From Acetobacteraceae bacterium (lineage in GTDB: Bacteria; Pseudomonadota; Alphaproteobacteria; Acetobacterales; Acetobacteraceae), in assembly GCA_027487385.1 (NCBI GenBank), contig JAIYDS010000238.1, forward strand, positions 1 through 33,301: a DNA stretch of 33,301 nt, given 5' to 3'. Position 1 is the first letter of the stretch. Every line of letters starts with the position of its first letter. This document shows positions 21,437 through 33,301 of the stretch, piece by piece. The notes beneath the pieces were generated by a model. That model ran no database searches, was not told the origin of the DNA, and saw only the letters and a program-made list of their open reading frames with translations. Position numbers and translations under genes: made by a program.

Positions 21437-21634
21437 CACCTGCTCCGCCGCCCCGACATGCACGTTTCCTGTCACAAACCTAGGCGAAACCCGCTGCAAT
21501 GCCTATCCACCTCGGCCTGGCGCGCCCGGCCTCGGCCCTGCGTGCTGGGCAACAATCCGCTCGGCGCCCAGGCTTGCCCCCTCCCCCCCATCCGGCGCAT
21601 GGTCCGCCGCAAGATGCCCTGAGGAATGATCCCG

Positions 21635-23146
21635 ATGCTCGACACGCCGCACCCCACCCCCGTCGCCCCCTGCCTCGACCAGCAGAAGCTGGCCACCGCC
21701 CTCTCCGGCCTCCACTTCATCGGCGGCCGCTATGTGCCGGCCATCAGCGGCCAGAGCTTCGCCGTGGTGAACCCCGCGACCGGCATCGAAGTGGCCCGCG
21801 CCGCCGAGGGCGACGCGCAGGATGTGGACGCCGCCGTCCGTGACGCCGCCCGCGCCCAGAAGGAATGGGCCAAGGTCCCCGCCCGCAAGCGCGGCGCGCT
21901 GGTGCATCAATGCGCCGCCCTGCTGAAGGAGCACCAGGAGGAGCTGGCCCGCCTCATCGCGCTCGAAACCGGCAAGGCGCTGCGCACGGAAAGCCGCGTC
22001 GAGGCCGGCGTCGTGGCCGATGTCTTCGAATTCTTCGGCGGCCTGGGCTCCGAGCTGAAGGGCGAGAGCGTGCCCTTCGCGCCGAACGTCCTGAGCGTGA
22101 CGGTGCGGGAGCCGCTGGGCGTGGTGGGCGCCATCATCCCCTGGAACGTGCCGATGCTGCTGATGGCGCTGAAGGTCGCGCCCGCGCTGGTGGCGGGCAA
22201 CACCGTCGTCGTGAAATCGGCCGAGGAAGCGCCGCTCGCCGTGCTGCGCATCTGCGAGCTGATGAACCGCATCCTGCCCGCTGGCTGCTTCAACATGGTC
22301 AGCGGCATGGGTCCGGAATGCGGCGCCCCGCTCGTCGAGCATCCGCTGGTCCGCAAGGTGACCTTCACCGGCTCGGTCGAGACCGGGAAGATCGTGGCCA
22401 AGGCGGCCTCCCAGAAGCTGGTGCCGGTGACGCTGGAGCTGGGCGGCAAGTCGCCCATGATCGTCTTCCAGGATTGCGACTTCGCGAAGACCGTCTCCGG
22501 CGCGCTGACCTCCATGCGCTTCACGCGCCAGGGCCAGTCCTGCACCGCGGCCAGCCGCATCTACGTCGAACGCCCGATCTTCGACGCCTTCGTGGCCGAG
22601 ATGAAGAAGGCAGTGGACGGCATGGTGATGGGCGACCCGCTGGACGAGAAGACCGACATCGGCACCATCATCAGCCAGGGCCAGTTCGAGAAGGTCCAGG
22701 CCTATATCGCCGAGGGCAAGGCCACGGCCGGCGCCACCGCGCATGAATGCAGCGCCATGCCGAGCGACCCGGCGCTGAAGAAGGGCCTCTTCCTGCGTCC
22801 CGTGATCTTCACCGGCCTCGATGGCTCCTCGCGCCTGGTGAAGGAGGAGATCTTCGGCCCCGTCACCGTGATCCAGGCCTTCGACGACCCCGAGGCCGTG
22901 CTGGCCGAGGCGAATGACAGCGACTACGGCCTGGCGGCTTCGCTCTGGACGAACAATCTGAAGGTGGGGCTCGACCTCGCGCACCGCCTGGAGGCGGGCC
23001 TCGTGCAGATCAACCAGAACCTCGTGGTGCAGGCCAACCTGTCCTATGGCGGCGTGAAGTCGAGCGGCCTCGGCAAGGAGGCCTCGCTGGAGGCCATGCT
23101 GGAGCACTTCACCCACAAGAAGACAATAATGGTCAACATGGGGTAG
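21635..23146 (+). CDS. Aldehyde dehydrogenase (NAD(P)+-dependent), 3' end rewritten by the integrated element
   Basis: This enzyme oxidises an aldehyde to the acid. I use the ATG at 21635 with GAGGA nine bases upstream, giving 503 aa; the ATG at 21626 abuts that ribosome site. Hallmarks are NPATG near the start, IIPWNVPMLLMALKVAPALV, VTFTGSVETGKIV, catalytic general base E268 in VTLELGGKSP, nucleophile C303 in QGQSCTAAS, and KEEIFGPV. The full catalytic domain is present and the substrate class cannot be fixed. The last codons, from about 23,125 onward, come from the integrated element: THKKTIMVNMG and a TAG stop replace the native THKKTIMVNMA that is now at 33,185-33,217. Function should be kept. 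The downstream gene it was coupled to is now 10 kb away. Confidence 0.92.
   Translation: MLDTPHPTPVAPCLDQQKLATALSGLHFIGGRYVPAISGQSFAVVNPATGIEVARAAEGDAQDVDAAVRDAARAQKEWAKVPARKRGALVHQCAALLKEHQEELARLIALETGKALRTESRVEAGVVADVFEFFGGLGSELKGESVPFAPNVLSVTVREPLGVVGAIIPWNVPMLLMALKVAPALVAGNTVVVKSAEEAPLAVLRICELMNRILPAGCFNMVSGMGPECGAPLVEHPLVRKVTFTGSVETGKIVAKAASQKLVPVTLELGGKSPMIVFQDCDFAKTVSGALTSMRFTRQGQSCTAASRIYVERPIFDAFVAEMKKAVDGMVMGDPLDEKTDIGTIISQGQFEKVQAYIAEGKATAGATAHECSAMPSDPALKKGLFLRPVIFTGLDGSSRLVKEEIFGPVTVIQAFDDPEAVLAEANDSDYGLAASLWTNNLKVGLDLAHRLEAGLVQINQNLVVQANLSYGGVKSSGLGKEASLEAMLEHFTHKKTIMVNMG
23112..23141 (+). repeat. attL core: direct repeat at the left end of the element
   Basis: Thirty bases inside the 3' end of the aldehyde dehydrogenase gene recur at 33,183-33,212 with 28/30 identity. 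The two differences, at 23,125 and 23,128, are synonymous third positions (ACA/ATA here, ACC/ATC at the right end). A/T-ending codons are unusual for this gene, so they were probably brought by the element. That places the strand exchange in the 13-bp identical part CCCACAAGAAGAC (23,112-23,124). Confidence 0.88.
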
Positions 23147-23246
23147 CGCCTGATTGCAGGGGGCGGCCGAAAACCCCTTCTCTCAGTGGCTTAGACCTCC
23201 AAGGCATTGCGCCCCGTGCCGCATGATTGCGCGGCAGCCCGCAAAG

Positions 23247-23289
23247 GAACATAGCTAACGCCGTAACTAGCAACGGAGCGTTAGCTATG
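23247..23289 (+). promoter_or_regulatory. Integrase start hairpin and left arm-type sites
   Basis: An 11-bp perfect inverted repeat, CATAGCTAACG (23,250-23,260) and CGTTAGCTATG (23,279-23,289), has an inner CCGT/ACGG pairing (23,261-23,264/23,273-23,276). In RNA it would bury the GGAG ribosome site (23,275-23,278) and the ATG of the integrase. In DNA the half-sites match sequences near the right end: GAACATAGCTAA here versus GAACATGGCTAA at 33,131-33,142. They may therefore be integrase or excisionase binding sites giving autoregulation. Both readings are inference. Confidence 0.6.
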
Positions 23290-24417
23290 GCTGTCAAACT
23301 GACCGATGCCTTCCTTCGGGGAGTGCCACCCAAGACCTTCGTCAGGGATACCCTCGTCACCGGGCTCGCAGTCCGGCGGCAAACGGACGCCTTGTCATTT
23401 GTGTTCGTCAGCGAGGCGGGGGGTAAGCAGAAGATGCTGACCCTCGGTCGCTACCCCGGCATGTCGCTGGCCGATGCTCGCGCCCAGGCCTCCGCCTTAC
23501 GGGGCAACCTAGACGCTGGTCGGCCGCTGGAGGCCGAGCGCCCCCTCGGTGCAACCGTCAACGATCTGCTGGACGCCTACCTCGCCGACAAGACGGAGGA
23601 CGTGGCGTGGTTCCTGTCCAAGCTGCGGGAGCCCCTCGGCACGACGAAACTCACCGCGGTCACCAGGGGCGACATTCAGCGGGTGGTGGACCGCATAGAG
23701 AGCGCCAGCGTCCGGGCAGCCGTGGCGAAGTATGCAGCCGCCGCGTGGAAGTGGGGCATCCCACGGGACTTGACCGCCGCCCCGTTGATTCTGGCCAAGC
23801 CCCCTGCCGCCGAGCCCCGCCAGCGGACCCTCTCGGTGGAGGAGCTTCGCGCCTTGATGCGGTATTGGCTGCCACGAGGCGCCGACAAGCCCGCGCGATC
23901 CGGCTTCGGGGCGATCATGGCCCTTTGCACGTTGACTCTCGCCCGCCGCAGCGAGATCGCCGAGTTGACCTGGGACGAGATACGGGGGGATCGCATAGTC
24001 CTGGCGCCCAGCCGCACCAAGCAAGGCCGAACGGCGACTCTCCACCTGTCGCCCCTCGCCCAGCAAATCCTCGCCTCGGTGCCCAGGTTCCACGACAGCA
24101 TCGTGTTCCCGGTAGATCGCGCCCGCAGCGTCGGCGGCAAGGCGTCGGATCGCCCAGGCCGCGCGGGACGGGGCTTTATGAGCGGGTTCGGCCCTGCCGT
24201 TCGCAGGATGCAGCTGGACACCGGAATCAGCGAGTTCACCCCCCATGACCTGCGGAGATCGGGAGCATCCTGGCTCGCCCAAACCGGGACGCCCCCGCAT
24301 CTGGTGGAACACATCCTCAACCATCAGACGGATCGGCTGGTGCGGACCTACCAAGTCGTGGACTACACGCCCGAGATTCAGGCTGCCCTTGCCCGATGGG
24401 CCCTGGAGATTGGCTAG
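23287..24417 (+). CDS. int: Tyrosine-family site-specific integrase (DUF4102/P4-integrase type)
   Basis: This recombinase should catalyse integration and excision at the att repeats. The product is 376 aa from the ATG at 23,287 (GGAG eight bases upstream); an upstream in-frame ATG at 23,227 adds 20 unlikely residues. The N-terminal arm-binding domain has the pattern LTDAFLRGVPP, LAVRRQ, LSFVFVSEAGGKQKMLTLGR and YPGMSLADARAQA typical of P4-like integrases. The catalytic domain shows R220 (TLARRSEIAELTW), H320-x-x-R323 (TPHDLRRSGASWLAQTG), H346 (HILNH) and nucleophile Y355 (VRTYQVVDY), so it appears complete. It lies 145 bp inside attL and reads inward. Its start codon is inside a hairpin that may restrict expression. 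Confidence 0.95.
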   Translation: MAVKLTDAFLRGVPPKTFVRDTLVTGLAVRRQTDALSFVFVSEAGGKQKMLTLGRYPGMSLADARAQASALRGNLDAGRPLEAERPLGATVNDLLDAYLADKTEDVAWFLSKLREPLGTTKLTAVTRGDIQRVVDRIESASVRAAVAKYAAAAWKWGIPRDLTAAPLILAKPPAAEPRQRTLSVEELRALMRYWLPRGADKPARSGFGAIMALCTLTLARRSEIAELTWDEIRGDRIVLAPSRTKQGRTATLHLSPLAQQILASVPRFHDSIVFPVDRARSVGGKASDRPGRAGRGFMSGFGPAVRRMQLDTGISEFTPHDLRRSGASWLAQTGTPPHLVEHILNHQTDRLVRTYQVVDYTPEIQAALARWALEIG

Positions 24418-24464
24418 ACGCTGCCCCGCCGCCCCGTTGCCCGGCAGGGTGGCCCCTGGACATT

Positions 24465-24494
24465 AAGAATCCTTCACTAGACGTAAAGATTCTT
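24465..24494. promoter_or_regulatory. Inverted repeat in the spacer after the integrase gene
   Basis: AAGAATCCTT (24,465-24,474) and AAAGATTCTT (24,485-24,494) are reverse complements at nine of ten positions, separated by ten bases. No U-tract follows, and the AT-rich composition and 20-bp centre-to-centre spacing look more like an operator than a terminator. The remaining 24,418-24,640 spacer shows no gene. Confidence 0.4.
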
Positions 24495-24640
24495 CGACGA
24501 GTTCGGTAACTTTCGGCGGAATCCGGGGGGAGTCAACTATCTCCCCGGCGACAATCGGCGAGAGGCAGAAAATAATCGGGTTGATCGTCGCCCTGTGTTT
24601 CGGCAGTTCTGTAGACGTCGCAAACACAGGAGCCAACGAC

Positions 24641-24979
24641 ATGGGTTACGGTCCAATCACCGAAGAGAAGGTTTGGTGGGAGATCGATAAGATACTCCAG
24701 CAGATGATCGGCGATATCTGGGGGTATCACCAGATGGAGCTGACCATGAGTCTTATTTCCATTTCTCAGAAGAGAAGACTCAATAGACTCCACAAGCTCA
24801 TGGAGTTCGCCGAGACGCTGCCCATGCACAAGGGCAACATTCTCTATATGATGGCCGCTCCTGTCCTGGAGTCTGACAAGATGCACCGGGAAATTCGGCG
24901 TAAGTTCGAAAGCGCGAAGACCGAAGAAGAACGCAAGAACGCTCCCGCCGAATGGTATAAGTTCATCGGTATCAGGTAG
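24641..24979 (+). CDS. Hypothetical protein (112 aa)
   Basis: The start is the ATG at 24,641 with AGGAG (24,628-24,632) eight bases upstream; a longer in-frame version from 24,581 has no ribosome site. The product is mostly helical and charged: EEKVWWEIDKILQQMIGDIW, then a methionine-rich middle, then a basic/acidic helix KMHREIRRKFESAKTEEERK. No membrane segment or known motif is seen. It lies between the integrase and the first AlpA-like gene, where phage satellites often carry small regulators, but nothing in the sequence shows a function. Codon use is more AT-tolerant than the host genes. Confidence 0.7.
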   Translation: MGYGPITEEKVWWEIDKILQQMIGDIWGYHQMELTMSLISISQKRRLNRLHKLMEFAETLPMHKGNILYMMAAPVLESDKMHREIRRKFESAKTEEERKNAPAEWYKFIGIR

Positions 24980-25115
24980 ACCAAAACCGGCACCATTGCG
25001 CGTCTATGCGTTTTGTGCCAGTATAGTTCCGCCCCGTAACCGGAAGTAGAGCCCGGTCTATAAATCCCTACTGATCAAAGCTGGTGGCACCCCCTCATCT
25101 TCTTAGGAGTGTGCC

Positions 25116-25331
25116 ATGCGCTTTATGCGCGTCGAAGACGTGATCAATACGGGGCTGTTCTCCAGCAAATCGGCAGTGACCCGAGCCCACAAACGGGGGG
25201 AGCTGCCCGCCCCAATGCGGTTTGGGAACAAGCTGGTCTGGGAGACGGCAGCCTTCGAGGAGTTCATCCGCGAGAAAGCCCAGGCCGCCGCGTCGCCCCG
25301 CCGAGTGGTGGTGCGGAGGAAGCCCCGATGA
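25116..25331 (+). CDS. AlpA-like helix-turn-helix protein, copy 1
   Basis: This 71-aa protein resembles AlpA/excisionase-type winged HTH (MerR-like) DNA-binding proteins: a first helix MRVEDVINTGLFSS, a recognition region KSAVTRAHKRGELPAPMRFG, then the strand-turn NKLVWETAAFEEFIREK, followed by a basic tail PRRVVVRRKPR. AGGAG lies eight bases before the ATG. AlpA proteins activate excision or element genes in P4 and PICI satellites; the role here is inferred. Its stop overlaps the next start (ATGA). A second copy lies at 26,744, with the matching pattern G-[LM]-FSS-[KR] and GN-[KR]-L-[VI]-W. The 136-bp spacer before it has AGTATAGT at about 25,019-25,026 but no convincing full promoter. Confidence 0.8.
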   Translation: MRFMRVEDVINTGLFSSKSAVTRAHKRGELPAPMRFGNKLVWETAAFEEFIREKAQAAASPRRVVVRRKPR

Positions 25332-25534
25332 CCTGGCTCGTCCTGCCAAACGGCACTCTCGTGAACACCGATCACATCGTGTCCATCGAGATCATGGGGT
25401 TCGGCGAAACCGAGACCCCGCAAATCGTCGTCGCGCTGGTGAAGGGCAGACCAATCGTCATCGACTGCCTGAACCTGGAGGCAGCCGTCGAGCGGATGGT
25501 CGCCTTTGGGGCGATTGTGGGGGCGCGGTCATGA
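25328..25534 (+). CDS. Small protein coupled to AlpA-like copy 1
   Basis: The product is 68 aa, starting at the ATG at 25,328 that overlaps the previous stop (ATGA) and ending in another ATGA overlap with the next gene. The sequence begins MTWLVLPNGTLVNTDHIVSI, alternating hydrophobic residues as in a small beta-barrel or beta-sandwich, followed by an acidic/beta segment and a helix LEAAVERMVAFG. The N-terminal half matches the partner of the second AlpA-like gene (NG..LVN/LLN, then I.SI.[EI]). No family with known function is recognised. Strict translational coupling suggests it works in fixed ratio with the HTH protein. Confidence 0.72.
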   Translation: MTWLVLPNGTLVNTDHIVSIEIMGFGETETPQIVVALVKGRPIVIDCLNLEAAVERMVAFGAIVGARS

Positions 25535-26520
25535 TGGACCAGGCCCGCACGCTGGATCAAGCAACCAAGCGCGAGCGACAGCGCATCTTCGCTCTGCTGG
25601 ACCGTTGCCGATTGTCCGTTGTCGACCCGCCGCCTTCGGGGCTTGGGGTGATCTATGTCGTCTTGTTGCCCTGGCGCCCTCACGGGGAGCGGTGGGCGTA
25701 TCTCGGCCGGAGCAAGGAGTGGTGCCTCCGGTATCTCGGGAGCGGGAAGGCCCTGGAGAATCCGCTCCGCCTCCATGCCAGGGGGGAGTTCATCAAGCTC
25801 TGCGTTGGCGCGGCGGAGGATGGCCCCCCGTTGATCGCGCTGGAGGAGGCCCTGCAGATCCGTGCAGGCGTCCGTCGCAGCCGCGAAGACCCCCAACACC
25901 GTGATTGGTTGAATATTGTGGTGAACGGGGGCGGGGGATTGCTTGCCACGCGGGAGCAATGCGTGGCGGGTGGTGAGATCAGCGGCCCGATCCAAGGTCG
26001 CAAGAACGCCGAGTCCGGGCAGCTTGCGAGCATCGCCGGCATGGGCGGCCCCGCGACCTCACCCCGCTACAGGTCCGACCCCGCCTACCGCGATGCAGTG
26101 GACAATGCCGATCCAAGCATCTGGGGGGAACGCTTCCCAGCCCTGCCGATCAACAAGGCGACGGGGCAGAACAGCCGCATGGCGTCGATCCCCAAGACCA
26201 CATTCCTCATCGAGCCGGTCAGCCGTCCAGACAAGATGAACCCAGCCTCACGCCGAGGGTCGCTTGTCGCCCTGGCGCTCGGTTGCAGCACGTCCGCGGA
26301 GTATGCCGAGGGCTACCCCGCTATCCAGACCCTCTTCGGGGGCACGGAGACCGACTGGCGTCCGTCCTTCAGCGTCATCTGGCGGATGGGCTTCGTGCGG
26401 GTTCGCTGCCCCGACACTGGTCGCCTCTACTGCCCGGAGACCGGTCAGCTCCTCCGCCGCGTGGTGGTGCGCCCCCGTGCCAATGGCGGCACGGCCGAAG
26501 AGGCCCCGGAGACTACCTAG
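25531..26520 (+). CDS. GIY-YIG-like endonuclease with NUMOD-like tail
   Basis: The product is 329 aa, starting at the ATG at 25,531 inside an ATGA overlap. Residues 39-135 follow the GIY-YIG plan of phage homing-type enzymes: GVIYVVLL (39-46) in place of GIY, WAYLGRSKEW (55-64) in place of YIG, then RYLGSGKALENPL with the conserved arginine R67, a helix with glutamate ALEEAL (103-108), and WLNIVVNGGGG with the asparagine. Residues 148-173 (GGEISGPIQGRKNAESGQLA, then SIAGMGG) resemble NUMOD-type DNA-binding repeats found behind such nucleases. The C-terminal 120 residues, ending RCPDTGRLYCPETGQLL, are unassigned. It could cleave competitor DNA or act in element spread. Family assignment is by eye only. 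Confidence 0.6.
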   Translation: MMDQARTLDQATKRERQRIFALLDRCRLSVVDPPPSGLGVIYVVLLPWRPHGERWAYLGRSKEWCLRYLGSGKALENPLRLHARGEFIKLCVGAAEDGPPLIALEEALQIRAGVRRSREDPQHRDWLNIVVNGGGGLLATREQCVAGGEISGPIQGRKNAESGQLASIAGMGGPATSPRYRSDPAYRDAVDNADPSIWGERFPALPINKATGQNSRMASIPKTTFLIEPVSRPDKMNPASRRGSLVALALGCSTSAEYAEGYPAIQTLFGGTETDWRPSFSVIWRMGFVRVRCPDTGRLYCPETGQLLRRVVVRPRANGGTAEEAPETT

Positions 26521-26619
26521 AGACGCGCTGGAGACGGTTTGCAGGGGGGCGCCGCTACCCGTGGCCCGGTTGCCGCGTCCAAGGCCCCCTAGGACCGCCC
26601 AGCTAACCCATTCCCAGGC

Positions 26620-26671
26620 TTGCTATAAGCAACGGTTATGGCTGCCACCAAAACCGATAAATCGAATTTAT
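26620..26671. promoter_or_regulatory. Two odd palindromes upstream of AlpA-like copy 2
   Basis: TTGCTATAAGCAA (26,620-26,632) and ATAAATCGAATTTAT (26,657-26,671) are near-perfect palindromes with three-base centres (ATA and CGA), 24 bp apart, in the AT-rich spacer 26,521-26,743. They look like repressor or activator operators for the downstream gene pair. No confident -35/-10 pair was found; no gene lies in the spacer. Confidence 0.4.
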
Positions 26672-26743
26672 GGGCAAATGTCGAGTCACGTCTCGAAGAG
26701 TTCAAATATCATTGAGCTTCTAACAACTTGAAGGACAATCAGC

Positions 26744-26989
26744 ATGCGACGTATGCAAATACCAGAGCCGCTATTTTGGAGTGTCCCCGACATGTTGAGG
26801 GTCGGCATGTTCAGCAGTCGGGAGCAGTTGATGAAGGCCGTCGCTGCCGGACGCTGTCCGCGCCCTGCGAAAGCTGGGAATCGCCTGATCTGGAAGAGAC
26901 TCGAAGTTCTCAGCTGGTTCGAGCAGAACAAGATCGTGATCTACCGGCAAGACCGCCCACCCGCCAAAGGTCCGAGGATCGTGATATGA
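26744..26989 (+). CDS. AlpA-like helix-turn-helix protein, copy 2
   Basis: The product is 81 aa, with the ATG at 26,744 and AAGGA eight bases upstream. The HTH region reads FWSVPDMLRVGMFSSREQLM, then KAVAAGRCPRPAKAGNRLIW and a helix LEVLSWFEQNK. It aligns with the copy at 25,116 through G-[LM]-FSS-[KR], R/G-rich turn, P.P...GN-[KR]-L-[VI]-W and a C-terminal PR-[IV]-V. It is preceded by two palindromic sites and overlaps the next gene by ATGA, as copy 1 does. It is likely a transcriptional regulator or excisionase; two paralogues may divide these jobs. Which of them controls excision cannot be told. Confidence 0.75.
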   Translation: MRRMQIPEPLFWSVPDMLRVGMFSSREQLMKAVAAGRCPRPAKAGNRLIWKRLEVLSWFEQNKIVIYRQDRPPAKGPRIVI

Positions 26990-27216
26990 ACATCTGGGTT
27001 CAGATCAATGGCAACCATCTACTCAACATGGCGAGTATTGAGAGCATAGACGTGGAATGCGTCAAGGGTCGATGGGCGATTCGCTACCAGCTTCTCCACC
27101 CGAAGGCGGATGGTCCCGAGGGCGAGATATTTCATGGCCCGCGTGAATGCTTCCCCAGCGAGGCCGATGCAAGACGCCGATTCGCATATCTCGCCGGTCT
27201 ATTGGTATCGGCATAA
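26986..27216 (+). CDS. Small protein coupled to AlpA-like copy 2
   Basis: The product is 76 aa from the ATG at 26,986, overlapping the previous stop (ATGA). It begins MNIWVQINGNHLLNMASIES, the same W-V/x-NG-x-x-LxN-xxxIxSI pattern as the protein at 25,328, so the HTH-plus-partner pair occurs twice. The middle has beta-type sequence (VKGRWAIRYQLLH) and the C-terminus a helix SEADARRRFAYLAGLLVSA. No known function. The TAA stop lies in an A-run that belongs to a leftward terminator. Confidence 0.7.
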   Translation: MNIWVQINGNHLLNMASIESIDVECVKGRWAIRYQLLHPKADGPEGEIFHGPRECFPSEADARRRFAYLAGLLVSA

Positions 27217-27248
27217 AAAAGCCCCCGCGCCTGGGGGGCAGCGGGGGC
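27215..27248 (-). terminator. Leftward intrinsic terminator
   Basis: GCCCCCGC (27,221-27,228) and GCGGGGGC (27,241-27,248) form a perfect 8-bp stem with a 12-base loop. On the minus strand the stem is followed by six T (27,220-27,215), the classical intrinsic terminator. On the plus strand no T-run follows. It therefore best stops leftward transcription, although the only leftward gene seen in the element is at 32,698-32,997. Confidence 0.65.
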
Positions 27249-27314
27249 AGTTGGGTCAACAGGAGGGAATCACGTCACACACTCAGCAAGACGACACCAG
27301 CGACGGGACCACTG

Positions 27315-27376
27315 ATGCCTTCAACAACCAGAGTCGGAGAACCCTGATGTTCAACACCAGAGCAGTAGCACCCTGA
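27315..27376 (+). other. Two mini-ORFs in an imperfect tandem repeat, coupled to the primase
   Basis: MPSTTRVGEP (27,315-27,347) and MFNTRAVAP (27,347-27,376) are consecutive mini-ORFs joined by TGATG junctions (27,345-27,349 and 27,374-27,378), the last of which contains the primase start. They lie in an imperfect ~30-bp tandem duplication whose units end in CCCTGATGT. The second mini-ORF has GGAG seven bases upstream, whereas the primase itself has no good ribosome site, so primase translation probably depends on re-initiation. A strong AGGAGG at 27,261-27,266 has no start codon at normal spacing. Confidence 0.5.
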
Positions 27377-29847
27377 TGTCTAATCGAATTGTAGTCCGCC
27401 GCAAGGCGAGGGGACAAGGCCAATATTCTGACGCCTCTTCCAAGGAATTTAGCGCAGAGGTCGGCACAACGCCCGCCGATGCTGCCAAGATCTGGGGCGA
27501 GACCAAGAAGATCAACGGGGCGGCGATTCTTTACTTGGAGAGCCTCGGGTTGTGGCCCTTGCCCAAGGACTGCCCCCTGCGCTCCGGCACATACAGGGTG
27601 GACAAGCATCATGAATACGCGACCCTTGTTGCCCCGTTGGTCGATCCGGCAACGGATCAGCTCAAGGCTGTCCAGGTCTGGTTGCTCCGGCCCGATGGCA
27701 AGCAGGAAACGCGCGCCGACGGGGCTGCCGACCGTCGCACCATTGGCCACACGCGGGGCACCGTCTGCAAGATCGTCCCCGGTGATTTCCGGCCGGGGCT
27801 GATGCTGGTGGAAGGCGTGAAGGATGCCCTCGCGCTCGCTAAAGACCCCGACCCGAACAAGGTGGGATTGGACGTTCAGCAGATGCTTGTCGAGCGGGGC
27901 TGGACAACCCAGCGCCCCATCTGGGCGACGTGTGGCACCGCCAACATGCGCGACTTCCAGCCGCCAGAGGGTATGCGCGATCTGATCGTGTGTGCCGACC
28001 ACGATCCTCTCGGTGGGCAAGCCGCGAAGTCGTGCGTGGACAATGCGCGCCGCGCGGAAGGTGTGACTGCCCTCGCCCTTTGGTCGCCCGTGAAGGGTGA
28101 AGATCCCTACGATGTATGGAAGCGCGGAGGTGAACTCGTTCCGGCGTGGATTGATCGTCGTCGCCGCGCCCCCTATGCCATGCTGCCTCCGGAAACCGCC
28201 CTCAAACTCAAGGCGCTTCTCCTGGAGGAGTCCCCCGACATCTCCGGCTTTTGTCAGGCTAACAACGTAGTCCGAAAGAAAGAGCTTTTGGACATGATCG
28301 CCGCCGAGGAGGCCGAGCAGGCGTTCGAGGAGAATGTCCAGGGGCCGATCCTGGAGGTGATGCCCGGCAGCACGACGGAAACGCTGGATCGCATCGACAG
28401 CCTGCTGGAAGGCGCGAACCTTCTCTTTGCCATGGGCGAGGGGGGCGGCGTTCGGGTGGTGGCAGTCTCGCAGATCACAGAAGAGCGGAGGCGACAACTC
28501 GCCGAGCAACAAGTCCAGGTCTACACGGGGCAGACCGCGGTCGTTCCCGTGAACCCCCACATGCTTGCCGACATGATTGGCCGCTACGCCTATGTCTACA
28601 AAGAAACGGCGCGAGGCCCCGTCCGCACCGACATTCCGTTCTCCGTCGCCAATGCCTGGCTGGAGAGTGGTCGAGCGCGGGTGCTGCCCCTGCTGCGCGG
28701 CTTGGCTCCGCATCCCATTATCCGCCCAGATGGTGATGTGGTTGCCCGCCATGGCTACGATCCCACCTCCAAGTTCTTCATCACTTGGCGCGGCGAACAG
28801 TTCGTGAAGATGCCGGTCGAAAGGGCGCTGGCGCTGTTCTTCGGGACCGACATCCAGAAGAAGGGTGGACTCTTTCGCACCTACCCGTTCGAAGCGGTCC
28901 ATCACCGCCTCGGCGCCCTGGCGATGATGTTGCAGGTCTTGGATCGCCACAATCAGCGGCTCAGCCCCGCTTGGGCGTTCGACGCCCCCACGCCCCGGAC
29001 AGGCAAAATGCACCTTCAGCGCACGATTACCGGCGTCGCCATCAACAGCGGTCCAGTGATCTACTCCATGGGCGACGGTCCAGAGGAACGCCACAAGCGG
29101 GTCACACACGCGCTGATCGAGGGCTCGCCGGTCGTGTGCTTCGACAATATCAACGGGGCGTTCGATAGCTCCGACGTCGCCTCCTACCTGGGAGAGGGCA
29201 ACGTGTCGCTCCGCACCTATGGCATGACCGGCTTGTCGCCATCGGCCGTGAACTCCAACACCCTGACCTTCACCGGCAACAACATCGTGATGACCAACGA
29301 TATGCAGACCCGCGTTGGCAAGATTCGCCTGGATGCGAATGTCGCGTCGCCGGAAAGCCGCACCTTCGACTTTGACCCCCATGCAGAGGTCCGCGCGTTC
29401 AGGGGGCGTTATCTCCGCGCCGCCCTGTCGATCCTTGCCCATGGCTGCAAGGACGAGAAGGCCGCGAGGGCGAGGCTCGGCGGGCTGGGCATCTTCGAGG
29501 AATTCAACACCCGCATCCGCTTCCCCCTTTGGGAGTTGACCGGCGTCGATGTCGGCAAGTGCTTTGAAGACATGAAAGGCGACGATCCAGCGGCGATGGA
29601 ATTGAACATGATGTTTGGCGAACTCAGTGACTGGTTCAAGCTGGAGCCGTTCACTGCCACCATGATCGAGGCTAAGAGCAATGTGACTGAGGGGGCGTCT
29701 GCGTTTTCGAAGTTCCGGTCGGCCGCGACTATTGGGAAATGGCTTGCGTCTAGCCTGGGGGCAGTTGCCGTAGGGCGCAAATTGGAGCGTAGGGTCCGCG
29801 ATGGATACACGACGTATAGGTTGCTTGAAGTGAAAGCCCCAGATTAG
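27376..29847 (+). CDS. Toprim primase-helicase of satellite/phage type
   Basis: This 823-aa protein likely primes and unwinds element DNA. The N-terminal third has a primase-associated segment AAKIWGETKKINGAAILYLE, then SLGLWPLPKDCPLR. A Toprim domain follows, with the glutamate in LVEGVKDALAL (E146), GTANM, and the acidic pair CADHDPLGGQAA (D208, D210). The C-terminal third is a P-loop helicase-like domain: FDAPTPRTGKMHL around residues 535-547 replaces the usual GxGK(S/T) with RTGKM, Walker B is VVCFDNI (586-592), and the family block LTFTGNNIVMTND, then RTFDF, follows. The helicase P-loop lacks the S/T after lysine, so ATPase activity may be altered. No CHC2 zinc finger is visible at the N-terminus. 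Start by TGATG coupling. Confidence 0.82.
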   Translation: MSNRIVVRRKARGQGQYSDASSKEFSAEVGTTPADAAKIWGETKKINGAAILYLESLGLWPLPKDCPLRSGTYRVDKHHEYATLVAPLVDPATDQLKAVQVWLLRPDGKQETRADGAADRRTIGHTRGTVCKIVPGDFRPGLMLVEGVKDALALAKDPDPNKVGLDVQQMLVERGWTTQRPIWATCGTANMRDFQPPEGMRDLIVCADHDPLGGQAAKSCVDNARRAEGVTALALWSPVKGEDPYDVWKRGGELVPAWIDRRRRAPYAMLPPETALKLKALLLEESPDISGFCQANNVVRKKELLDMIAAEEAEQAFEENVQGPILEVMPGSTTETLDRIDSLLEGANLLFAMGEGGGVRVVAVSQITEERRRQLAEQQVQVYTGQTAVVPVNPHMLADMIGRYAYVYKETARGPVRTDIPFSVANAWLESGRARVLPLLRGLAPHPIIRPDGDVVARHGYDPTSKFFITWRGEQFVKMPVERALALFFGTDIQKKGGLFRTYPFEAVHHRLGALAMMLQVLDRHNQRLSPAWAFDAPTPRTGKMHLQRTITGVAINSGPVIYSMGDGPEERHKRVTHALIEGSPVVCFDNINGAFDSSDVASYLGEGNVSLRTYGMTGLSPSAVNSNTLTFTGNNIVMTNDMQTRVGKIRLDANVASPESRTFDFDPHAEVRAFRGRYLRAALSILAHGCKDEKAARARLGGLGIFEEFNTRIRFPLWELTGVDVGKCFEDMKGDDPAAMELNMMFGELSDWFKLEPFTATMIEAKSNVTEGASAFSKFRSAATIGKWLASSLGAVAVGRKLERRVRDGYTTYRLLEVKAPD

Positions 29848-29950
29848 GGGCCGTCGTTGCCCTGTCGATTGTTGCCTCTCACGGCGATCGCTGTAAGGAG
29901 AGTGGCGGCAGAAGGCTTTAGTGCTACCACTCCACCCTTTAGCGGTAGGA

Positions 29951-30044
29951 AAAATAGGGGGGGCTATTCTAGTCTACGTCTAAACTATCTTCTTCTATTC
30001 AAATGCTTAGATTATTCCGAGGAATATACCACCCCCCCTGTTTT
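29951..30044. repeat. AT-rich block framed by a G7/C7 inverted repeat
   Basis: AAAATAGGGGGGG (29,951-29,963) and CCCCCCCTGTTTT (30,032-30,044) are complementary at 12 of 13 positions around 68 bases of AT-rich sequence, which holds an inner palindrome TATTCCGAGGAATA (30,013-30,026). It could be a DNA-unwinding element or a large cruciform; the role is inferred. Confidence 0.5.
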
Positions 30045-30063
30045 CATACGGCCTAGGGGTGGG

Positions 30064-30094
30064 AGTGGGGGCAGTTACCCCCCTTGCCCCCACT
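30064..30094. repeat. Strong hairpin downstream of the primase
   Basis: AGTGGGGGCA (30,064-30,073) and TGCCCCCACT (30,085-30,094) form a perfect 10-bp stem with an 11-base loop. No U-tract follows in either direction, so it is a stable structure rather than a clear intrinsic terminator. Confidence 0.5.
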
Positions 30095-30652
30095 GGCCGG
30101 GGCGACCGCCAATCGGGCTGGCGAGACTCCAAGGGTGGTGCCGTTAGCTGCCTGGTGACTGTGATGCCGTTACCCAAGATCCAGGGGGCGCTCGGCCCTG
30201 GCCCCGCGCAACCGGGGCAGCCCTGCCGCATGGCACCCCAGGCGACACGCTGGAGACGCGCTGGAGACCCCTGTGGCACCCCGCCCGGTGCTGCCATGCC
30301 CCAAGCCCTGCCCAATGCCTCTCAGACGCCTCTATTTGCCTAGACGTCCACTACAGTTGCAAATAGTGGAATTTTTCTACGAGAACAATCAACAATCAAC
30401 GCCTCCACCCCGCTCGACTCGCCGATCCAATATTGAAATCCAAATCAAATCCGCGACTTTAGACCAATTAGGTCCTGTATAGGCTCCAGTCTAAACCCGT
30501 AATCTCTGCGTCTTAACGACCCGATCGGCACGGCAGGGGGGGGAGGAGCGGTAAATGTGGACACCGCCTCGAACCGACCGGCCCAGGGCGAAAACATTTA
30601 AAGTTGCCCAAAATGGACCCCGCCACGCTAGACCCGAGGTCGCCCAGATCCC

Positions 30653-30702
30653 AACCCGCCAGCAACCGCCGCAAACCCGCCAATAACCGCCAATAAAACG
30701 CC
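30653..30702. repeat. Five helically phased AAC(C)CGCC repeats (iteron-like)
   Basis: Copies start at 30,653 (AACCCGCC), 30,664 (AACCGCC), 30,674 (AACCCGCC), 30,685 (AACCGCC) and 30,697 (AACGCC), spaced 11, 10, 11 and 12 bp. CCGCCAATAA occurs as a perfect 10-bp tandem pair (30,677-30,686, 30,687-30,696). Phasing near one helical turn suggests a protein array on one DNA face: origin iterons, or an operator for the operon starting at 30,766. One further ACCGCCAAT lies at 30,105-30,113. Confidence 0.55.
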
Positions 30703-30765
30703 GCGCTGGTCGCTTCAATATCGCCGACTTTATACTTGATCTCGCAAACAACGGAGTCCAGCGAG

Positions 30766-30966
30766 ATGAGTATGTCTCCAGAAAAAGCCCGCCGATTGGA
30801 GCGGGAAAGGAAGAACCGGGAGGCGATGATTCAAGGAATCGGCATGACTCTCCGAGAGTTGAAGGCCGAGATCCTCGCCGAGCAGCAGACGGCCCTCAAC
30901 GCTCTCCGCGAGCAGGTGATCGCCCTGCAGAACCGCGTTGCCGAGCTTGAGCGGGTGCAGACGTGA
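30766..30966 (+). CDS. Small coiled-coil protein (66 aa)
   Basis: The start is the ATG at 30,766 with GGAG nine bases upstream; another ATG at 30,772 and a TTG at 30,736 are in frame. The product is highly charged and heptad-like: EKARRLERERKNREAMIQG, then LRELKAEILAEQQTALNALR and a leucine-zipper-like end VIALQNRVAELERVQT. This indicates a dimeric coiled coil without a catalytic domain. It is the first gene of an overlapping five-gene operon and overlaps the next start (GTGA). Function unknown; small coiled-coil proteins of satellites can interfere with helper phage proteins, but nothing here demonstrates that. Confidence 0.7.
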   Translation: MSMSPEKARRLERERKNREAMIQGIGMTLRELKAEILAEQQTALNALREQVIALQNRVAELERVQT

Positions 30967-31241
30967 TCATCCTCAACGTGCCGGGCGAACCCCTCAACCT
31001 CAAGCGAATCGCCGGGGGCGTGTTCACCGCGCTGAACAAGCTGGACATCGAAGATCCGTTCGATGTGGACCTCATCGGCAACTGCGTTCTCGCGAGCCCC
31101 GATCACACGGCCCTCGTCGCCCAGGAGATTCGCCGATGGGTGACGGTCATCACGTCCTGGGGCGACCCGGCCCCCGCTCACCTGATTCACATCAGCACCG
31201 CTCTCGGGGCGTTGCACTCCACTCAGGGGGGTTCCGCATGA
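30963..31241 (+). CDS. Hypothetical protein (92 aa), GTG start
   Basis: The start is a GTG at 30,963 overlapping the previous stop (GTGA), and the stop overlaps the next ATG (ATGA at 31,238), so it is tightly coupled on both sides. The product begins MIILNVPGEPLNLKRIAGGV and has no membrane segment, cysteine cluster or recognisable motif. The second half contains IRRWVTVITSWGDPAPAHLI. The GGTTCC end of the gene contains one of the element's G6 runs. Unrecognised. Confidence 0.7.
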   Translation: MIILNVPGEPLNLKRIAGGVFTALNKLDIEDPFDVDLIGNCVLASPDHTALVAQEIRRWVTVITSWGDPAPAHLIHISTALGALHSTQGGSA

Positions 31242-31543
31242 GTGCCGCCGTCCGGAAGCCTGTCGCCCCGACGCCCGGCCGCCCCGTCGAGATCAGCGCA
31301 GCGCGGAAGAACGCGGCGCTCCGCGCTCTGGGGTGGGTTGCGCTTCACGTTCAGCGCCATCGCTGGCAGTCCGTATGCCCGTGCTGCCTCCATTTTAATC
31401 TGATGATTGACGGCAGCCTCAGTGAGCCCACGGCCATGATCTGCACGAACTGCGGCGAGACCGACCCCCAGAAGATCCACGAGGCGCAAGTCAAGCACAT
31501 CCAACAGAAACTTCAGGAGATCGAAGATGTTTGTCGCTCGTAA
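31238..31543 (+). CDS. Zinc-ribbon protein, copy 1 (101 aa)
   Basis: The start is the ATG at 31,238 in an ATGA overlap. A proline/arginine-rich N-terminus is followed by ALGWVALHVQRHRWQSVCPCC and, about 27 residues later, MICTNCGETD: two CxxC pairs that should bind one zinc ion as a zinc ribbon. A helical tail (QVKHIQQKLQEIEDV) follows. The next gene encodes a second protein with the same H-x-W-Q-x-V-CPCC lead-in, so the two are tandem paralogues. Zinc ribbons commonly bind nucleic acid or protein; specific function unknown. It overlaps the next gene by 17 bases. Confidence 0.72.
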   Translation: MSAAVRKPVAPTPGRPVEISAARKNAALRALGWVALHVQRHRWQSVCPCCLHFNLMIDGSLSEPTAMICTNCGETDPQKIHEAQVKHIQQKLQEIEDVCRS

Positions 31544-31940
31544 CGCCCCCAATCCCGAGACCATTTCGCGGCAAGCCCGCGCCGAGACGCCAGTCGTCAA
31601 CGTGAGTGATCCCGACCGCTGGAATCGCTTGATGGAAGCGATGCGCGGTGTCCAGACGCACGTGATCGGCCACGCGCATTGGCAGTTCGTGTGCCCCTGC
31701 TGCAACAAGGGGATTGGCCTCGCCGGACAGGCGGTGGACAGCGCGGGGAATCTCCAGGTCGTTGCGAGCTGCAATCACTGCGGCGCTGATTTCGACGATG
31801 TCTGCAACAAGACCCCTCGCGAGCCGCTCCCCCTGAACGGAGGGGGGTTTGTGGCGCCCAAGGCCCCGCCGCCGAACTACGGCATCCCCGTCGAGGATCA
31901 GCCGAAACGACGCTGGACCTTCGGGCGGATCAAGCGCTGA
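31527..31940 (+). CDS. Zinc-ribbon protein, copy 2 (137 aa)
   Basis: The ATG at 31,527 lies inside the end of the previous gene. It contains HVIGHAHWQFVCPCCNKGIG and, after about 20 residues, ASCNHCGADF: again two CxxC knuckles. It is longer than copy 1, with a proline-rich C-terminus ending in the basic PKRRWTFGRIKR. Shared lead-in and knuckle spacing indicate duplication and divergence. It ends in a TGATG junction with the next gene. Possible nucleic-acid binding; not demonstrated. Confidence 0.72.
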   Translation: MFVARNAPNPETISRQARAETPVVNVSDPDRWNRLMEAMRGVQTHVIGHAHWQFVCPCCNKGIGLAGQAVDSAGNLQVVASCNHCGADFDDVCNKTPREPLPLNGGGFVAPKAPPPNYGIPVEDQPKRRWTFGRIKR

Positions 31941-32605
31941 TGACCACCCTCAACATCTCCCTCCGCCGCCTGCATCGGCGGTTTGGCGACGCGACATTCA
32001 CGGAGCGCGACGGCAGAGCTGTGACGAAAATCACGACCTTTGTTGCCTGGGCAGCGGCCGAGCCATCGGACAGCGCCTTCGTCCTCCGTCGCCATGGCAG
32101 CCGGTATCGCATCGAGGCATTGGAGGGCTCTGAGACGGCCCTAGAGCCCGCCGCCCCTGCCCCTGCCGTGGCACCGCCTCCGGATATTGCGGCGATCACC
32201 CAGCTGGAGGTCCACCGAAACCAGGGGCGCGAGCTTCAACGCCTCCGCGCTCACTTTGGGAAAAACGGGTTCACCACCTTTGCCGCGACCCTCTTTCTCA
32301 AAAAGCCGAACTTCGAAGAGTGGGCGAGCGACAACCCGATCCAGGGCGACCTGCAAATCATCCGGTTCGCTGAGAGATGGTTCGTCGCGGACCTCACCAC
32401 CCGGCTGGCGCAAAAGGTGGTGCCGAGGCTGAGCCAGTTGAAACAGCCGTTCTCCATTCCCGCCGCGAGCTTGATGCTGAACGGGATGCCGATCCCGGCA
32501 ACCAGCCAGATCCTCTCACGGCTCGTTCAGGGGGGCGCCGTGAAGCCCGGCAACAAGGCGGGGACATTCGCGGTCATACCGCCTCAATCAGAGTGGTGGC
32601 GCTGA
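31940..32605 (+). CDS. Hypothetical protein with winged-helix-like C-terminus (221 aa)
   Basis: It starts at the ATG of a TGATG junction at 31,940. There are three parts: an N-terminal basic/beta segment (SLRRLHRRFGDATFTERDGR), an alanine/proline linker around residues 68-82, and a C-terminal half with FSIPAASLMLNGMPIPATSQ, then ILSRLVQGGAVKPGNKAGTF. The latter reads like helix, recognition helix and beta-wing of a winged helix. No family is recognised; DNA binding is only a guess from shape. It is the last gene of the operon and is followed at once by the structured tandem repeats. Confidence 0.65.
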   Translation: MTTLNISLRRLHRRFGDATFTERDGRAVTKITTFVAWAAAEPSDSAFVLRRHGSRYRIEALEGSETALEPAAPAPAVAPPPDIAAITQLEVHRNQGRELQRLRAHFGKNGFTTFAATLFLKKPNFEEWASDNPIQGDLQIIRFAERWFVADLTTRLAQKVVPRLSQLKQPFSIPAASLMLNGMPIPATSQILSRLVQGGAVKPGNKAGTFAVIPPQSEWWR

Positions 32606-32609
32606 CAGG

Positions 32610-32703
32610 ATCACCGAACCGGGCACGCGCAATGCCCGGTTTAGCGACAGAATCACCGAACAGTGTGCATAACCCACACTATTTAGCGACGGGATCGCTA
32701 AAT
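32610..32703. repeat. Tandem hairpin repeats with conserved flanks and covarying stems
   Basis: Two 39-bp units with a 42-bp period (32,610-32,648 and 32,652-32,690) share ATCACCGAAC on the left and (G/A)TTTAGCGAC on the right. Between them lies a 6-7-6 hairpin: CGGGCA/TGCCCG in unit 1, AGTGTG/CACACT in unit 2. All six pairs differ yet stay complementary. The right flank of unit 2 also forms a perfect 9-bp inverted repeat ATTTAGCGA/TCGCTAAAT (32,681-32,689/32,695-32,703) reaching into the end of the leftward gene. It is not CRISPR-like (only two units, no spacers of fixed sort). It may be a bidirectional terminator, operator pair or structured RNA. Confidence 0.65.
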
Positions 32704-32997
32704 CGCCTCCAGCTTGATGTAGCCATTGGCGACGAAGAACCCAAGGCTGGAGCCGGGGGTTACGCCACTCATCAGTTCCGGAAAGCGAGCCAGGGCGGCG
32801 ATATAGTCGTCGGTCGTGGCGCTGGATTGTGCCAGATAAAGACGGCGCCCCCGATTTGAGGTGTTGTCCAGATCGTCGGGGTTGGCGACGGGGACAATCC
32901 GGTAGTTGACGCCTTTCAGTTTGACGGTCATCTTCTTTTGGCCCGAGACGATGACCGGCAGGTGAGCCCAGCGAGCAACGGGGCGATACTTAGACAC
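32698..32997 (-). CDS. Hypothetical leftward protein (99 aa), GTG start proposed
   Basis: This is the only leftward gene recognised in the element. I choose the GTG at 32,997, which has AGGAG nine bases upstream; a GTG at 33,027 would overlap the promoter candidate. The product begins (V)SKYRPVARWAHLPVIVSGQK and contains a beta-rich segment MTVKLKGVNYRIVPVANPDD, then RRLYLAQSSATTDDYIAALA, and ends LGFFVANGYIKLEAI. No motif recognised. It is convergent with the five-gene operon across the tandem hairpin repeats. Its position next to attR, read in opposite orientation, recalls accessory cargo genes of satellites, but that is only positional reasoning. Confidence 0.68.
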   Translation of the reverse strand: MSKYRPVARWAHLPVIVSGQKKMTVKLKGVNYRIVPVANPDDLDNTSNRGRRLYLAQSSATTDDYIAALARFPELMSGVTPGSSLGFFVANGYIKLEAI

Positions 32998-33028
32998 GGT
33001 AGAAATCTCCTGTGTGGGTTGTGGCACT

Positions 33029-33056
33029 ATACTAAGGCCCCCGCTTCGGAGAGCAA
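33029..33056 (-). promoter_or_regulatory. Candidate promoter of the leftward gene
   Basis: On the minus strand TTGCTC (33,056-33,051) and TAGTAT (33,034-33,029) are separated by 16 bp, about 30 bases before the GTG start. The match to consensus is partial. Confidence 0.35.
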
Positions 33057-33099
33057 GCGCCAGGGGGGCAGACCCGCCGCCCCGCCCGTGGTAGGCTTC

Positions 33100-33142
33100 T
33101 AGCCATGGGCAGCCGCCCCGCCATAGCTGCGAACATGGCTAA
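33100..33142. promoter_or_regulatory. Right-end arm-type sites (inverted repeat near attR)
   Basis: TAGCCATG (33,100-33,107) and CATGGCTA (33,134-33,141) form an 8-bp inverted repeat with an inner GCAGC/GCTGC (33,109-33,113/33,126-33,130). The right half extends to GAACATGGCTAA (33,131-33,142), matching GAACATAGCTAA at 23,247-23,258 in 11 of 12 positions. Each end of the element thus has one forward and one inverted copy, as expected of integrase or excisionase arm sites. Confidence 0.55.
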
Positions 33143-33182
33143 ACCACCGGAGATCGGCCTTTGCCTTGCATTTCAAGCCTTC

Positions 33183-33212
33183 CCCACAAGAAGACCATCA
33201 TGGTCAACATGG
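33183..33212 (+). repeat. attR core: direct repeat at the right end of the element
   Basis: This is the copy of the 30-bp attL sequence (28/30). It carries ACC and ATC at the two differing codons, matching host codon preference, so from the crossover rightward it is native chromosomal sequence. Confidence 0.88.
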
Positions 33213-33217
33213 CATGA
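33185..33217 (+). pseudogene. Displaced native 3' end of the aldehyde dehydrogenase gene
   Basis: In frame it encodes HKKTIMVNMA and TGA, the original C-terminus of the dehydrogenase now ending MVNMG at 23,146. Its TGA overlaps the start of the next gene (ATGA at 33,214-33,217), showing that the two genes were contiguous and coupled before insertion. Confidence 0.85.
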
Positions 33218-33301
33218 GCCTCGACCTGACGGGCAAGACCGCGGCCGAGCTCAAGGCGATGGTGGCCAATGCCGAGGCCATCCTCGCCGGCCCCAACGCC
33301 A
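33214..33301 (+). CDS. Unidentified host protein, N-terminal 29 codons (runs off the window)
   Basis: The ATG at 33,214 overlaps the displaced stop of the aldehyde dehydrogenase. The fragment MSLDLTGKTAAELKAMVANA, then EAILAGPNA, is helical and too short to identify. High-GC host codon use returns here. Before insertion it would have been the second gene of an operon with the dehydrogenase; it now lies next to element DNA, with no rightward promoter seen in the last 180 bp of the element. Confidence 0.7.
   Translation, partial: MSLDLTGKTAAELKAMVANAEAILAGPNA

Follow-up and report, generated by a model that had tools for sequence, protein, structure and literature searches.

What kind of mobile DNA occupies the 3′ end of an aldehyde dehydrogenase (ALDH) gene in an Acetobacteraceae bacterium, and how would it move between cells? 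The locus lies in contig JAIYDS010000238.1 (assembly GCA_027487385.1), of which we analysed a stretch of 33,301 nucleotides (the window). Near the end of this window is an element of approximately 10.1 kb with 14 predicted genes (g1-g14) between two attachment (att) repeats. A first-pass annotation, made from the sequence letters, had proposed a satellite that depends on a helper phage. Our comparisons identify a site-specific integrative element that belongs to a small family and most likely behaves as a phage satellite, a reading to which we give a probability of about one half and which draws partly on analogy with published systems.

The borders are well defined. As the first-pass annotation had it, the element is bounded by a 30-bp direct repeat; its copies are 28/30 identical and 10,071 bp apart from start to start. 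None of 100 dinucleotide-preserving shuffles of positions 22000-33301 reaches this identity, the best giving 25/30. The left copy (attL) forms the final codons of the ALDH gene. The ALDH region is present in all 21 same-genus genomes searched, including that of the window, and in 9 of the 20 relatives the site is empty, with ALDH-att directly joined to the post-attR sequence of the window (108-119 bp at 84-100% identity; genome G015 is identical across 108 bp). In one further relative (G017) the post-attR sequence is displaced by approximately 254 bp from ALDH-att, and in the last 10 relatives other DNA adjoins ALDH-att. The attR form (ACC ATC) is that of most relatives and attL is a variant (ACA ATA), as would be expected if the incoming element had rewritten the left end. 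Judging from the integrase, the att repeats and the empty site in relatives, this is a site-specific integrative element.

Two side observations concern the same site. In G017 (L059, near 889-919 and from 1143), the ALDH end is followed after approximately 254 bp by another, diverged att-like copy, which an earlier insertion may have left behind. Contig C105 (L002:1-115) starts within attR and duplicates the final 115 bases of the window (33187-33301). An assembler may produce such a break when the element is absent from part of the chromosomes sampled, making a mixture of occupied and empty sites possible.

To describe the gene content, we scanned all 14 predicted proteins against Pfam and PHROGs, 10 against NCBIfam and 9 against PADLOC; pairwise protein similarities are given as z scores from 200 shuffles, with 210 pairs tested. 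The features are listed in Table 1. The tyrosine integrase predicted just inside one att repeat is borne out by two profiles, both above cut-off. The two AlpA-like proteins are weak when taken singly: g3 reaches HTH_17 (PF12728) at E 0.045, below the cut-off, and phrog_66 at E 0.037, and g6 matches nothing better than E 0.1. They are related to each other (none of 200 shuffles as good), and a profile built from these two and the two AlpA-like proteins of the sister element described below has as its best PDB match the AlpA-family regulator 8c3t (the next match has E 1.0). The Toprim primase-helicase g8 scores 35.7 bits with Toprim_3 against a cut-off of 27.2, and Toprim_3 and Toprim_2 are the only Pfam families matched; it also matches the DNA primase family phrog_510, and phrog_29234, a phage family without an assigned function, matches its second half. 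In line with the first-pass annotation, the Pfam and PHROGs scans of the 14 proteins gave no match with an E value of 0.001 or lower to any structural (capsid or portal included), packaging, terminase, lysis, relaxase or conjugation family. The PHROGs labels "tail" for the coiled coil g9 (E 0.11) and "head assembly" for g5 (E 0.42) are at chance level.

The same plan recurs elsewhere. An integrase search of 328 family genomes at E 1e-40 or better returned the integrase itself and one relative, in a genome of another genus (G346; E 1.3e-88; 49% identical to g1), and this relative lies in a compact element, not in a full prophage. The sister element (L123:7563-18061, minus strand) adjoins the same ALDH gene (82% identical DNA) and is flanked by 33-bp repeats (94%) that are 10,466 bp apart. 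Its genes run in the order integrase, g3-like AlpA, a slot gene on the opposite strand, g6-like AlpA and Toprim primase, followed by approximately 1.5 kb with little clear coding and then small genes including one zinc ribbon. Of the two outcomes that the first-pass annotation had set against its proposal, capsid-, portal-, terminase- or relaxase-like genes and nearest kin that are all full prophages or plasmids, neither appeared in the scans. Common to both elements are the ALDH att site, the integrase, the two AlpA-like genes in order, the Toprim domain (29% identity to that of g8, E 3.9e-15), a zinc ribbon and a near-equal size. By contrast, the helicase of the sister is VapE-like (PF05272, E 2.9e-48) and unlike that of g8, its slot gene lies on the opposite strand, and we found one zinc ribbon in it compared to two in the window element. 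A common plan and site and a near-equal size, together with different helicases and slot genes, suggest a mobile family that exchanges modules. The weaker similarities between the zinc ribbons and between g13 and a 158-aa protein of the sister point in the same direction. Going by this recurrent design, the element is part of a small family of site-specific integrative elements and not a one-off. A search with the alignment of the two integrases found three more relatives, at 28-29% identity, in genome contigs. Pfam, PADLOC and PHROGs offer no family for the sister's slot gene; nor do they support the label AbiTii-like, which we considered for it and dropped.

The insertion site itself also receives other islands. 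A degenerate att pattern matches 117 of 397 family genomes, and the reversed control matches none. Eight genomes have two matches, in four cases with both on one contig, at spacings of 10.07 kb (window), 10.47 kb (G346), 23.25 kb (G196) and 45.24 kb (G180). The G196 island (L135, L136) encodes an integrase, an HTH_17 gene, a Prim-Pol and an AAA_25 protein, and that of G180 (L132-L134) is a 45-kb island at the ALDH 3′ end. G134 is not an occupied site, because both of its matches are ALDH genes on separate contigs. In G224, G321 and G410 just one match of the pair is at an ALDH gene, so that an island split over contigs is likely; G410 (L145) has an integrase 38% identical to that of the sister, an AlpA-like stretch, an AAA_25 protein and a PLD-type NgoFVII-like nuclease. 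The islands compared here are of several kinds and lie next to different integrases, which makes the ALDH 3′ end a hotspot.

Table 1. Features of the element and its insertion site (window coordinates).
Feature	Position	Strand	Evidence
ALDH gene, 506-aa open reading frame; host gene, its 3′ end is the integration site	21626..23146	+	family name from reading the translation
attL	23112..23141	+	28/30 direct repeat; empty site in relatives
attR	33183..33212	+	28/30 direct repeat; empty site in relatives
g1, tyrosine integrase with arm-binding domain	23287..24417	+	PF00589 E 1.3e-15, PF13356 E 7.3e-11, both above cut-off
g2, orphan, 112 aa	24641..24979	+	no family match at E 0.05 or better
g3, AlpA-like protein 1	25116..25331	+	sister's first AlpA-like protein z 23.1; profile vs 8c3t E 0.029
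g4, orphan, 68 aa, overlaps g3	25328..25534	+	phrog_38178 (function unknown) E 0.0026
g5, 329 aa, slot gene with an alpA gene on either side	25531..26520	+	C-terminal part common to g14, z 9.4
g6, AlpA-like protein 2	26744..26989	+	sister's second AlpA-like protein z 15.6; g3 z 13.4
g7, orphan, 76 aa, overlaps g6	26986..27216	+	no family match
g8, Toprim primase-helicase, 823 aa, P-loop RTGKM	27376..29847	+	Toprim_3 E 1.2e-8; phrog_510 E 6.1e-19; phrog_29234 E 6.3e-41
non-coding stretch, possible origin	29848..30765	.	repeat evidence mixed
g9, coiled-coil-like protein, 66 aa	30766..30966	+	low-complexity-type matches below cut-off only
g10, orphan, 92 aa, GTG start	30963..31241	+	no family match
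g11, zinc-ribbon protein 1	31238..31543	+	g12 z 8.8; sister's zinc ribbon z 5.9
g12, zinc-ribbon protein 2	31527..31940	+	g11 z 8.8; phrog_6504 (function unknown) E 0.00027
g13, orphan, 221 aa, possible C-terminal winged helix	31940..32605	+	sister's 158-aa protein z 4.7 (weak); fold pLDDT 43.4
g14, 98-109 aa by start choice; domain common with the end of g5	32698..33027	-	z 9.4

Fewer of the remaining genes can be named. The first-pass annotation had labelled g5 a GIY-YIG-like enzyme, a motif seen by eye that finds no profile, PDB sequence or fold match in its favour (Pfam, PHROGs, NCBIfam, PDB); the label is not established. The single-sequence fold of g5 (mean pLDDT 31.9) is unusable, and its only relative in 328 family genomes is itself, with none in phages or plasmids. 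For the domain that it has in common with g14, none of 200 shuffles was as good. For g13, the single-sequence fold is of low mean confidence, and a search of 397 family genomes gave itself and weak matches in seven others (E 0.001-0.009), several with internal stops; it has no relative in plasmids, nor has g12 in phages. PADLOC gave no match for the nine window proteins scanned or for the sister's slot gene, and Rfam gave a single chance match below its gathering score. The earlier statement that the cargo is unlike that of known satellites means, in part, that no homologue was found. We also considered g4 and g7 as a repeated small gene behind each alpA and rejected the idea, since the two are not significantly similar (z 2.4, a level matched by 8 of 200 shuffles). 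By eye, a peptide resembling R-[VI]-[VI]-V-R-R-K ends g3 (25290-25331) and g5 (26455-26485) and starts g8 (27379-27410), and a like peptide also ends the sister's first AlpA-like protein (L123:15698-15943). Outside the element, positions 1-21500 of the window hold mostly ordinary chromosomal genes, named from their translations, including minus-strand genes for an RNA polymerase subunit and ribosomal proteins.

The gap of 918 bp between g8 and g9, without a convincing gene, had been called origin-like. Its repeated 8-mers (76) exceed all 200 shuffles (maximum 69) and short phased repeats lie at 30652-30702, but its repeated 9-, 10- and 12-mers (28, 8 and 0) stay within the shuffles (maxima 34, 22 and 4). 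In the counterpart stretch of the sister, repeats of 8, 9 and 10 bases outnumber those of every shuffle; those of 12 bases do not. With this mixed evidence an origin in the gap is plausible, and the label as such is not established.

Relatives of g8 at E 1e-20 or better occur in 40 of 397 family genomes (its own included), with listed identities, itself excepted, of 26-35% in the second half. Among 20 helicase neighbourhoods, L087 and L088 gave no match in one search, though their open reading frames cluster with g8. By tblastn, 18 phage records (approximately 24-29% identity) and 20 plasmid records (below 30%) were found, none covering 80% of the query, and peptide-pattern scans, which reach only relatives retaining short exact motifs, showed no close primase relative in viral or genome contigs. 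In the genome of the window, a further compact element on contig C9 (L110:1961-10238; C9 21960-30237) combines a serine recombinase and a ParB-N6/N4 methylase with a D5-type relative of the g8 helicase. A compact element in G015 (L127:1637-7729) likewise has a ParB-N6/N4 methylase and a D5-type relative of g8. Both include a terminase small subunit (phrog_309, E 3.1e-13 and 3.9e-14), and by their gene content they are candidates for satellites of another build. Beside them, no large terminase was recognised in the part of their open reading frames scanned; the large-terminase family phrog_2 occurs at a single place in the genome of the window, on a contig other than C9. That a cousin helicase sits in compact elements with a terminase small subunit supports the view that the window element behaves as a satellite. 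A possible helper is at hand in the same genome, where a Mu-like prophage (contig C199, 33.9 kb; L125, L126) encodes a tail sheath, a major head protein, a head protease, a large terminase, a transposase and a transposition protein; the one portal family searched, PF04860, was not found in this genome.

Several observations weigh against a satellite. The element and the Mu-like prophage have in common only slightly more short words than controls do: the longest has 18 bases compared to 14-16 in four control stretches, 14-mers occur at 0.65 per kb compared to 0.10-0.43, and 12-mers are within the control range. Given that the C9 element and the sister show similar values, no packaging signal can be claimed. 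PHROGs yielded no terminase match up to E 0.1, and for 10 proteins up to E 5. Viral contigs contained no element-like DNA in three protein scans and one att pattern, which covered primase peptide patterns, the integrase alone, the two-integrase alignment and the exact window form of att, and hence gave no sign of packaging; the reach of the protein scans was confined to relatives in which short motifs are retained exactly. Larger islands without a recognised helper link occupy the same ALDH site. Lastly, the P-loop of g8 (28989-29030) has a Met in place of the usual Ser/Thr, compared to GSGKS or GTGKS in 12 of 13 aligned relatives and GTGKG in one; the helicase cluster has 17 further members, and the alignment took in 13 of these, omitting L084, L086 and L098 (529-aa open reading frames) and L093 (4.3-kb contig). 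This change raises a real doubt about the predicted helicase ATPase, or may be the sign of a variant.

Some of these points would suit a self-contained integrative genomic island that is not adapted to phage packaging: it would integrate, excise and perhaps replicate, keep its cargo for the benefit of the host, and spread by generalised transduction, natural transformation or other uptake. The hotspot also takes 23- and 45-kb islands, no packaging gene was found, and the third site candidate (G410) carries a PLD-type nuclease. However, a primase-helicase with AlpA-like genes is the usual satellite core (PMC10803314 and PMC6092414) and the size of the two sister elements is near-constant, so that we regard such an island as a serious alternative but a doubtful one. 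An integrative mobilisable element, which would combine an oriT of its own with the relaxase of a conjugative element acting in trans, would likewise be small and have an integrase and a replication gene, and PMC11389934 describes such elements as common and often unrecognised; we consider it improbable, with no relaxase or mobilisation match in any of the 14 proteins. The altered P-loop, and the fact that the phage records are remote relatives of the helicase domain, might instead indicate the now immobile remnant of a decaying prophage or satellite. This is equally hard to credit, since the genes are open and overlapping, the att copies are near-identical, the sister element is just as compact and PHROGs revealed no remnant of a structural gene.

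How would the element work as a phage satellite? Its integration can be read from the sequence, while excision, helper dependence and packaging are proposed by analogy with published satellites (PMC10803314, PMC6092414 and PMC8628076). The integrase, with one or both AlpA-like proteins, would excise and re-insert the element, and an AlpA-type activator would switch it on during phage activity. The primase-helicase g8 would copy the circle from the adjacent non-coding stretch. Since no structural, terminase or relaxase gene was found, the circle would leave the cell in helper-phage particles. The gene between the two alpA genes would be exchangeable cargo.

A bolder scheme concerns the primase. 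CxxC pairs precede the Toprim part in two of eight Toprim relatives (L016, L018), five show none, and L015 has a zinc-binding-like stretch by eye. Neither g8 nor the sister's primase has such a stretch, and both elements encode separate zinc ribbons, whose profile gave only generic PDB matches. The ALDH end might thus harbour a new satellite family with two AlpA switches around an exchangeable slot and a split primase, in which the zinc ribbons act in trans on template recognition. Absence of the stretch alone proves little, because several stand-alone relatives also lack it, and we think this full scheme rather unlikely.

As a satellite, the element would carry this way of life into a further bacterial group, and the matched pair at one defined site would allow helper range, cargo exchange and primase architecture to be tested. 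Should it prove to be something else, a protein gene that repeatedly receives islands of 10 to 45 kb has nevertheless been documented. The satellite models considered here depend on known sites and on AlpA and primase profiles of particular kinds, and would miss the element or barely reach it.

Among known satellites, P4 has a size near 10 kb. The element resembles P4-like satellites in this respect, in its AlpA-like protein and in its Toprim primase-helicase, and its integrase is one that we take to be of the P4 arm-domain type. It differs in that, of the P4-like markers psu, delta, epsilon and alpha (PF07455, PF04606, PF10554 and PF03288), none is among the Pfam matches of the 14 proteins up to E 0.1. 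The tyrosine integrase PF00589, a marker of P4-like elements, PICI and PICMI alike, is present; of the AlpA markers PF05930 and PF12728, only the latter is reached, by the sub-threshold match of g3. Gram-negative PICI such as EcCICFT073 have, like our element, an integrase gene at one end, AlpA, a primase-replication gene and no structural or lytic genes (PMC6092414); here, in contrast, there is no terS match, there are two AlpA-like genes and the size is below the 15 kb typical of PICI. PICMI (phage-inducible chromosomal minimalist islands) of Vibrionaceae are also small, with an integrase, AlpA and primase core, no capsid genes, a site at the edge of a protein gene and a variable region for added genes, and int, alpA and prim suffice for their excision and replication (PMC10803314). 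They differ in their fis site and DUF3987/DUF5906 primase (PF13148/PF19263, not matched by g8), compared to ALDH and a Toprim primase with an unnamed helicase here, together with two AlpA-like genes and the zinc-ribbon and orphan genes. A literature search of partial coverage found no publication on satellites of Acetobacteraceae or Roseomonas. PMC11389934 defines a phage satellite as carrying either mechanisms for its packaging in phage particles or DNA signals to that end. Of the P4, PICI and PICMI features tested, some are present and several are not; what stands of the first-pass satellite proposal is the element, its borders and its integrase, AlpA and primase core, a design that recurs in the sister. 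By the features compared, the element is neither P4-like nor a PICMI, and its att site, core genes and sister mark it as a real, recurrent, satellite-like integrative element.

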